From contig JACQHC010000150.1 in the NCBI GenBank assembly GCA_016199245.1, positions 1 through 50,735 on the forward strand: 50,735 bases of DNA, written 5' to 3'. The notes beneath the pieces were generated by a model that ran no database searches, had not been told where the DNA came from, and saw nothing but the letters and a program-made list of their open reading frames with translations. The position numbers were made by a program, and so were the translations under genes. Position 1 is the stretch's first letter, and every line of letters begins with the position of its first letter. Positions 5,521 through 37,198 of the stretch are shown here, piece by piece. The stretch comes from Gemmatimonadota bacterium (GTDB lineage: Bacteria; Gemmatimonadota; Gemmatimonadetes; Gemmatimonadales; GWC2-71-9).

Positions 5521-5632
5521 GCGGCGATGACAGGCGATCACAGGCGACGACAGGCGACGTCGGCCTGCAGCGCTCCATCGGATGCCACATCGCCCGCCAT
5601 CGCCCGTCATCGCCTGACGTCGGCCGGCCTTC
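5521..5632. repeat. Short-period inverted array, 10 bp, GGCGATnnCA / CATCGCCnnn
   Basis: The left arm has four 10-bp units starting at 5521, 5531, 5541 and 5551, each with GGCGAY. The right arm (5581-5630) has units ending CATCGCC with the same 10-bp step and closes with GACGTCGG, matching CGACGTCGG in the left arm. Arms are separated by about 25 nt, so the whole can fold as a long imperfect hairpin. Confidence 0.85.
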
Positions 5633-8359: not shown

Positions 8360-8672
8360 CTCCCGCGGCACCGTCGGCACGGGCTCGGCCTTGGGGGCCA
8401 GCGTCGCCCCCGACGCCCGCCCGCCGCGCGAGGCGCCAAACAAGGGCGAACCAGAGCCGGAGAATGGAATGGCGCTCTGCCGGGTGGAGAGGGAGCACGA
8501 ACGTACGCCGCGCGACCGGTGAAGGCAACCACTCAGAGGCCGATCAGGGACGATTAGGGGCGATCGAAGGCGACGAGGCGCAACAGGTTCGCCCCAGATC
8601 GCCCTCGATCGTCGCTGATCGACCCCGTAAGGGTTGCCCCACCCGCACGGAGACGCCATTCTCTACCCCACT
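8360..8672. other. Divergent spacer between SDR and cstA genes (313 bp)
   Basis: Bases 8360-8530 are GC-rich with no convincing gene; 8535-8630 is a short-period inverted array. Promoters for both flanking genes should lie here, but no convincing -35/-10 pair was found by eye. Confidence 0.5.
8535..8630. repeat. Short-period inverted array, 10 bp, CGATnnnGGG / GATCGnnnCC
   Basis: Left units start at 8541, 8551, 8561 and 8571 (CGAT or CGAC followed by purine-rich bases). Right units ending GATC occur at 8600, 8610 and 8620 and read as the reverse complement. Period 10 throughout; it lies between divergent genes, so it cannot be a terminator for either. Confidence 0.8.
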
Positions 8673-14881: not shown

Positions 14882-15865
14882 TCACGGCGCCGGCGCCACC
14901 TCGTCAACGGTCGCGACCACGTTGTCGAGCACCCGGCCCTCCAGCACCACGTCGTCCCCGATGAGTGCGTGCCGCACCTGGCAGCCGACGAGCCGTGTGC
15001 CCCTGCCCACGATCGCCTCCCGTACCGTGCCTCCGGACACCACCGCCCCGGTCTCGATGGTCACGTTGGGCCCCACCACGCAACGGTCGAGCGCCGCGCC
15101 CGGTTCCACGCGCACCGGGTCAACCACCGTGACGTCGGGGCGCGCCGCCGGCGCCAGAGCCCGGCCATTGCGGAGGAGGTGGAGGTTGGTTTGGAGCACC
15201 GTCTCCACCTTGCCACAGTCGTACCAGCCCGCTACTTCCGCCGTCATGATCTTCCGGCCCCGGTCGATCATGTACTGGAAGGCGTCCGTGAGGAACCATT
15301 CCCCCATCTGCTTGGGGCGCGCGAGGGTCCACTCGATCCCGTCGAACAGAGCGCGCCAATCCGCCACATAATACAGACCGATATTCGCGAGCCGCGAAAC
15401 AGGCTCCCTGGGCTTTTCCACGATACGCGTCATGTACCCTGCGGAGTCGGTCACGACCACACCGAAGCGCTGGTAGTCCTCGACCTCCTTCGCCCAGATG
15501 ATCCCGTCGGCGCGGGTCGTGTTCACCAGGGACAGATCGGCGTCGAACAACGTGTCCACGAAGATGATGAGCACAGGCCCTCGCACGTGGGGCCGCGCGA
15601 GTCCGACGGCGCCCGCGGTCCCGTCCTGAATCTTCTGTTCGATGAAACGGGCCGGGTATTTGTAATTTGCTCGAACGTAGGCTTCGACCTGCTCTTTGAG
15701 GTGACCCGTGATGAAGATCAACTCCTCGACATCCAACCCGACGAGCTTGTCCATCACGTAGTCCATCACCGGCCGCCCGGCGACACGAATGAGCGGCTTG
15801 GGGACGCGCTGGGTCAGCGGCAGGAGGCGCGTGCCTTTGCCGGCCAAGGGGATGACGACTTTCAT
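14882..15865 (-). CDS. Sugar-1-phosphate nucleotidyltransferase with left-handed beta-helix tail
   Basis: A 327-residue protein that begins with the nucleotidyltransferase loop PLAGKGTRLLPLT, followed by PKPLIRVAGRPVMDYV, a VDTLFDADL metal-binding segment, EKPREPVSRLANIGLYYV, and GWYDCGKVETVLQTN. The last 75 residues have the hexapeptide-like rhythm of a left-handed beta-helix (VVGPNVTIETGAVVSGGTV). It should make an NDP-sugar for cell-surface glycans; dTDP- or UDP-glucose type is likely but not decidable. ATG 15865 starts two residues before the first beta-strand. Upstream on the same strand is a cupin gene, separated by a large inverted repeat. Confidence 0.85.
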   Translation of the reverse strand: MKVVIPLAGKGTRLLPLTQRVPKPLIRVAGRPVMDYVMDKLVGLDVEELIFITGHLKEQVEAYVRANYKYPARFIEQKIQDGTAGAVGLARPHVRGPVLIIFVDTLFDADLSLVNTTRADGIIWAKEVEDYQRFGVVVTDSAGYMTRIVEKPREPVSRLANIGLYYVADWRALFDGIEWTLARPKQMGEWFLTDAFQYMIDRGRKIMTAEVAGWYDCGKVETVLQTNLHLLRNGRALAPAARPDVTVVDPVRVEPGAALDRCVVGPNVTIETGAVVSGGTVREAIVGRGTRLVGCQVRHALIGDDVVLEGRVLDNVVATVDEVAPAP

Positions 15866-15873
15866 GGCGCCGG

Positions 15874-16032
15874 GACGCTGCGCGTGCCGGTGGCATGCCG
15901 CAGCGCGCGTGAGAGGCGTGTGGTCTCGGCGGACGCAGTGAACCGGGGTCGCGAGATTCTCACGGGGCGCTGGCGTGCGCCGTGTCCACACGCCTCGTCG
16001 CGCGCCAAGGCATGCCGCCGGCGCGCAGCGTC
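15874..16032. repeat. Long imperfect inverted repeat, arms about 50 bp, 62-nt loop
   Basis: The left arm (15874-15923) starts GACGCTGCGCG, contains GGCATGCC and GCGCGCG, and ends GAGGCGTGTGG. The right arm (15986-16032) is its reverse complement with two small gaps and a few mismatches; about 40 of 50 positions agree, including a perfect 11-bp innermost stretch. It fills the space between the cupin stop codon and the nucleotidyltransferase start, so any transcript covering both genes would carry the hairpin. No target-site duplication was seen. Confidence 0.8.
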
Positions 16033-16405
16033 ACGTGCGCCCATACCGGTCTTTCACCCGCACCACATCCTCTACCTCCGGCGTCGACGCCTCCAGCAGG
16101 TCGGCCGCGGTCACGGCCTCCATCTGGTGAATCGTCGGCGGCGTGACGTGGTAGCTCTCGCCCTCTCGCATGCGCCGTTCGGTGAGGGTGTCGCCCTCCT
16201 GGACGCGAAAGATGATCTCCCCGCGCAGGACGTAGATCGTCTCGTCCTTCTTGCGGTGGTACTGGAGACTCAGGACGTGACCAGGCTCGATATGGAGGAT
16301 CTTGCCGACGTACCGGTCGGTGCGAGCCCAGACCAGCTCATAGCCCCAGGGCTTGGCGACACGGTAGGGAGGCTGGGCGTCTTCGGCGGGAGGATGCTCT
16401 GGCAT
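16031..16405 (-). CDS. Cupin domain protein, mannose-6-phosphate isomerase type II-like
   Basis: A 124-residue single cupin. KPWGYELVWARTDRYVGKIL and the metal-binding EPGHVLSLQYHRKKDETIYVLRG carry the first cupin motif, and PPTIHQMEAV the second. This arrangement is that of the C-terminal domain of bifunctional mannose-6-phosphate isomerase/GDP-mannose pyrophosphorylases, here encoded alone. With the downstream nucleotidyltransferase it could supply an activated sugar, but stand-alone cupins of this type are functionally diverse. The stop codon forms the outer end of the large inverted repeat that follows. Confidence 0.8.
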   Translation of the reverse strand: MPEHPPAEDAQPPYRVAKPWGYELVWARTDRYVGKILHIEPGHVLSLQYHRKKDETIYVLRGEIIFRVQEGDTLTERRMREGESYHVTPPTIHQMEAVTAADLLEASTPEVEDVVRVKDRYGRT

Positions 16406-28956: not shown

Positions 28957-29050
28957 GCAAGCCGACGCAGGCCGACGATGGCTGACGAATGGCGACATTG
29001 GGCGGGAGCAACGTCGGCTGTCGTCGGCTATCGTCGCCCTCCGTCGACTA
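28957..29050. repeat. Short-period inverted array, 10 bp, GCCGACGnnn / nCGTCGGCnn
   Basis: The left arm has units from 28961 at exact 10-bp steps (GCCGACGCAG, GCCGACGATG, GCTGACGAAT, GGCGACATTG). The right arm from 29011 (ACGTCGGCTG, TCGTCGGCTA, TCGTCGCCCT, CCGTCGACTA) is its reverse complement. It occupies the whole convergent gap between lemA and the next gene and encodes the latter's stop codon (29048-29050). Confidence 0.9.
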
Positions 29051-37065: not shown

Positions 37066-37198
37066 AGCGGCATGGGCGGCATCACCGGCATGGGCGGCAT
37101 GGCTCGCTCATGGCAATTCATGCCGCGTATGCCGCTCAATCCGCGTATGCAGCTGACGTCGTGTATGCCGCTCATGCCGCTTATGCCGCCGGTCTGAC
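37066..37198. repeat. Short-period inverted array, 9 bp, GCGGCATGG / TATGCCGCn
   Basis: Left units start at 37067, 37076, 37085 and 37094 (GCGGCATGG, GCGGCATCA, CCGGCATGG, GCGGCATGG). Right units CATGCCGCG, TATGCCGCT, CATGCCGCT, TATGCCGCC run to 37196, with one stretch broken by a nonperiodic GCAGCTGACGTCG. It fills the gap between the two permease genes. Confidence 0.9.

Follow-up and report, generated by a model that had tools for sequence, protein, structure and literature searches.

A long hairpin between a cupin gene and a nucleotidyltransferase gene in an uncultured Gemmatimonadota bacterium is probably a copy of a MITE-like insertion family

The DNA analysed here, referred to as the window, is a stretch of 50,735 nt (contig JACQHC010000150.1) from G000, a MAG of an uncultured Gemmatimonadota bacterium (2.58 Mb, 67% complete). 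On the minus strand of the window, a cupin gene of the mannose-6-phosphate isomerase C-terminal type (16405..16031; PF07883/PF01050), which ends with a TGA stop codon at 16031-16033, is followed by a sugar-1-phosphate nucleotidyltransferase (NTase) gene (15865..14882; PF00483), which starts with an ATG at 15863-15865 and has no Shine-Dalgarno-like sequence upstream. The complete gap between the two genes, 165 nt in length (15866..16030), is occupied by a hairpin element. The first-pass annotation of the window had placed the beginning of an inverted repeat exactly at the cupin stop codon; this is correct, and the other end lies at the NTase start codon, so that the repeat takes up the entire intergenic space. 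In the region 15863-16033, the cupin stop and the NTase gene are in frame, no stop codon interrupts the 55 codons that separate them, and readthrough of the stop codon would give a cupin-NTase fusion; an open frame across the junction is about what is expected by chance at such a GC content and is unremarkable.

The inverted repeat is larger than had been described. A single gapped palindrome extends from 15871 to 16035 with an arm identity of 71% (gaps allowed), and it scores 45, the best of 300 dinucleotide shuffles scoring 30. By inverted-repeat calling, the outer arms CGGGACGCTGCGCG (15871..15884) and CGCGCAGCGTCACG (16022..16035), which are the right and left ends in the gene direction, respectively, match at 93% over 14 nt, and the inner arms GAGGCGTGTGGTCTCGGCGGACGC (15913..15936, plus strand) and GCGTGCGCCGTGTCCACACGCCTC (15973..15996, plus strand) match at 88% over 24 nt. 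The motif GGCATGCC at 15892..15899 has its counterpart in the opposite arm at 16009..16016. What had been read as a 62-nt loop is mostly paired, and the stem runs on to a small apex within the apical part (15937..15972). At the base of the hairpin, the pairs take in the TGA stop codon and finish 1 nt short of the NTase ATG. Folding of the minus-strand RNA, a check proposed in the first-pass annotation, gave -129.6 kcal/mol (z -8.2), while the z values were -8.4 for the plus-strand RNA and -7.3 for the minus-strand DNA; in each of the three cases, none of 200 shuffles was equally stable. Scanning the element for terminators and promoters returned none, and no Rfam model matched the window or the hairpin loci at the gathering level, by which a known Rfam RNA family was rejected.

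The junction was compared with that in related genomes. In 27 of the 28 relatives having both genes, a set obtained by whole-genome search, the stop and start codons are spaced by -4 to +15 nt, and in the remaining one by 50 nt. Similarly, 56 of 57 named Gemmatimonadota loci, a set that overlaps with the former, have a spacing of -4 to +5 nt and one has 50 nt. Among the relatives examined, a hairpin at the cupin-NTase junction was found only in G000. Since the gene pair abuts in the relatives, the junction hairpin is, as judged from these relatives, a lineage-specific insertion, and the relatives display the empty site that is looked for in a MITE.

Searching the genome for further copies of the arms, which had also been proposed, recovered related copies of the element, and we refer to this group as family B. 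Three or four diverged relatives are located on the contigs C131, C82 and C170, the last with one clear and one weaker copy. The copy at C131:11980-12250 aligns with the window copy along both arms in matching order, 58 nt at 81% and 22 nt at 95%; the motif of the inner arm at 15913..15936 is common to C131 and, in weaker form, to C170. The two T.T mismatches of the inner arm at 15973..15996 with its partner arm, lying in GTGGTCTCGGCG/CGCCGTGTCCAC, are identical in the C131 copy. The apical part of the window copy is unlike that of the C131 copy, where a core resembling family A (see below) stands between the arms. The segment C170:5880-5985 matches C131 over 42 nt at 83%. A covariance model built from the first two family B copies matched C82:35422-35578, which was outside the training set, over its full length with an E value of 8.8e-7; this copy carries the GACGCTG...GGCATGCC of the window hairpin's outer arms (the 15871..15884 side), and C170:13023-13198 matches it over 116 nt at 72%. 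Every family B copy has a stop codon at a distance of 0-27 nt, and both orientations relative to the genes are seen. A DNA search of 60 relatives found no family B copy, and a plasmid search gave one 40-nt match, which lies within an ABC gene and was discarded as a chance match. Being so few and so divergent, the copies give no proof of recent mobility of family B.

No target-site duplication is recognisable at the window copy or at the copies on C131 and C82. A weak GGCGC match occurs on both sides of the window hairpin and is likely due to chance in such GC-rich sequence. In the MAG, 67% complete as it is, a search for a mobiliser detected two PF01609 matches and no PF01797; the PF01609 transposases, in C16 and C35, were rejected as the family B mobiliser, their ends being unrelated. 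Genes for Y1 (IS200/IS605-type) transposases are present in relatives (L276 in G033, L278 in G005 and L277 in G023) and are flanked by inverted REP-like repeats, which are unrelated to families A-C, and these transposases were rejected in the same way.

The family B copies are not the only long hairpins in the genome. In 798 kb, we counted 51 palindromes with a score of at least 28, compared with 2 in shuffled sequence; the sample took in contigs picked for carrying matches, and the density is therefore not an unbiased genome average. Two further families were recognised. Family A is a MITE of about 170-180 nt with the ends CRGGCTGCTGAAAAACGGGCGC and about 10 copies in G000 (C187:1188-1370, C146:3917-4092, C39:14341-14523 and some 7 others; L074-L083). 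Both ends are intact in three of them, and all three have exact 4-bp target-site duplications, CTAA, TTAG and CTAG (YTAR); the target TAR provides the flanking genes with their stop codon, twice for both members of a convergent pair. ARAGORN found no tRNA in the tRNA-like cores of family A. Family C comprises about 20 full or partial copies with the hairpin core CTGCAGTTCG...CGCTCACTGACGCG (in G000, C56:29649-29786, C191:8823, C106:23617, C39:26367 and others, L149-L166; L150 in G005 and L151 in G004). The same core is present in two other genera, where the stems differ yet stay complementary, and across the three genera 15 pairs have changed on both sides, a number reached in none of 500 shuffles. 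The excess of hairpins, together with families A and C and the target-site duplications of family A, indicates that mobile hairpin elements are part of G000.

Taken together, these data make it probable that the inverted repeat in the window is one copy of a diverged non-coding MITE-like insertion family, family B, inserted between the cupin stop codon and the NTase start codon. The element would have arrived by transposition through an enzyme acting in trans. This agrees with the initial description of the repeat as a possible MITE-like mobile remnant, to which the empty site, the related copies and the 4-bp duplications of the sister family A have been added; neither a clear target duplication nor a parent transposase was found for the window copy itself. 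The window element has self-complementary, terminal inverted repeats and behaves like the MITE-like hairpin repeats found between bacterial genes, its formal membership of the MITE class being incomplete. The bacterial MITEs Correia (NEMIS), ERIC/IRU and RUP are likewise non-coding intergenic long stem-loops of about 100-200 bp, multi-copy, co-transcribed with their neighbours and without a transposase of their own (PMC2229807). Unlike these, family B is low in copy number, strongly diverged, without a recognisable target duplication and seen here in one MAG only; its sequence was compared with theirs only through the absence of an Rfam match. REP/BIME repeats, too, are palindromic and intergenic, and the system of tyrosine transposases flanked by terminal inverted repeats (PMC3733652) resembles the Y1 genes of the relatives with their inverted-repeat flanks. 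However, REPs are palindromes of 20-40 bp with GTAG/CGTC tags (PMC3733652), whereas the window element, at 165 nt, has long gapped arms and is several times too long for a REP or BIME, and the examined part of the genome contains no Y1 transposase. We therefore regard the element as belonging to a new family within a known class, the MITE-like hairpin repeats.

The insertion site bears on how the NTase gene is translated. In 52 of 58 distinct relatives, the 20 nt preceding the NTase start include a GGAG-like site, in or near the last codons of the cupin gene. The energy of the anti-Shine-Dalgarno duplex upstream of the NTase start has a median of -10.3 kcal/mol in the 58 relatives, and the -1.7 kcal/mol of the window is the weakest value of all. 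In G033, which is without the insertion, this site is likewise weak (-4.7), and thus the loss of the Shine-Dalgarno sequence need not stem from the insertion. A spacing of about 20 nt almost abolishes termination-reinitiation coupling (PMC10666635), and reporter work has shown that stable structure directly after stop codons insulates reinitiation (PMC7518266). Given these published effects, the 165-nt gap and the absent Shine-Dalgarno sequence, we infer that the two genes may be translationally uncoupled: in the mRNA that both genes share, the highly stable hairpin would insulate NTase translation from the cupin gene, and termination-reinitiation would be lost. We put the chance that the insertion has led to a loss of coupling at about even. 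The hairpin might also be a target of RNase III, a role proposed for the Neisseria elements (PMC2229807). As the insertion breaks a tight stop/start junction, it could plausibly alter how much cupin is made relative to NTase, and such a shift would be a by-product. Like the ribosome termination structure (RTS; PMC7518266), the window element lies between two genes of the same direction and gives the RNA a very stable fold immediately downstream of a stop codon; it differs in that its structure comes from insertion of a repeat and not from local selection, and in that an effect on reinitiation is deduced here from the published work.

A hairpin so placed could keep the genes coupled. The palindrome runs exactly from stop to start, its base enclosing the TGA and ending 1 nt before the ATG, and the 55 intervening codons are open in the frame of the two genes, so that the fold might bring stop and start together and a ribosome at the TGA might open the base and free the ATG. 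Such a model concerns the effect of the element and is compatible with an origin as an inserted repeat; nevertheless, we consider it unlikely, because stable structure after the stop lowers reinitiation (PMC7518266), spacing abolishes it (PMC10666635), and there is no Shine-Dalgarno sequence near the ATG. The element may, alternatively, be more than a mere MITE, namely a structured RNA or a DNA-recognition motif that was spread by mobility and has its fold under selection, with arms that vary in sequence but keep their complementarity around conserved inner motifs. The strong covariation in the core of the sister family C in three genera is in line with this, as is the constancy of the T.T mismatches in the C111 and C131 copies, whose outer and inner stems differ. 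But the covariation between these two copies alone is not significant (p 0.18), there is neither a fixed orientation relative to genes nor an Rfam match, and template-switch correction of palindromes would likewise preserve the complementarity of the arms; selection on the fold therefore appears slightly less likely still.

The first-pass annotation had also suggested an attenuating hairpin that sets the ratio of the two gene products. An attenuator or processing signal evolved in place would fit the position between co-directional genes of conserved order and the extreme stability of the RNA fold. It would be followed by a U-tract if it acted as a terminator or attenuator, and none follows the hairpin on the transcript; furthermore, relatives with the same gene pair lack the hairpin, and related palindromes adjoin unrelated genes in both orientations. 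The element is thus probably not a dedicated attenuator, and we judge an origin in place to be quite improbable. Finally, a read-through foldback in the assembly, named at the outset as what would overturn the finding, is conceivable in principle for a MAG contig, where chimeras can occur. Arms that are only about 71% alike, and not near-identical, together with flanks that are the expected syntenic genes and not mutual inverted copies, make such an artefact not credible, and related hairpins are found on other contigs as well; we give this explanation practically no weight. Insertion of a family B repeat hence remains the preferred reading.

With the hairpin lying exactly between the stop and start codons of an otherwise abutting pair, the locus is a clean natural case, and the many relatives with an empty site allow a direct test of how a strong intercistronic hairpin affects translational coupling. 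The site of insertion is unusual for this familiar kind of element, and the findings suggest that a population of long-hairpin repeats, so far undescribed, exists in Gemmatimonadota. Families B and C are linked weakly, by 29 nt at 83% at C170:5880. It is possible, though doubtful, that the two belong to one undescribed Gemmatimonadota-wide hairpin superfamily, with short conserved cores, characteristic internal loops and freely changing complementary stems, which would be targeted just after stop codons and rewire operon coupling on landing. In addition, tandem repeats of 8-10 nt (for example GGCGATCAGG, CGATGTTC and GCGGCATG) form the arms of other palindromes, several unit types being present in the genome. 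Such repeat-armed palindromes occur in the window at 8524-8638, 28960-29049, 5525-5622 and 37066-37154 and elsewhere at C56:36746, C54:816, C18:5972 and C7:15645, and many of them lie directly after stop codons.
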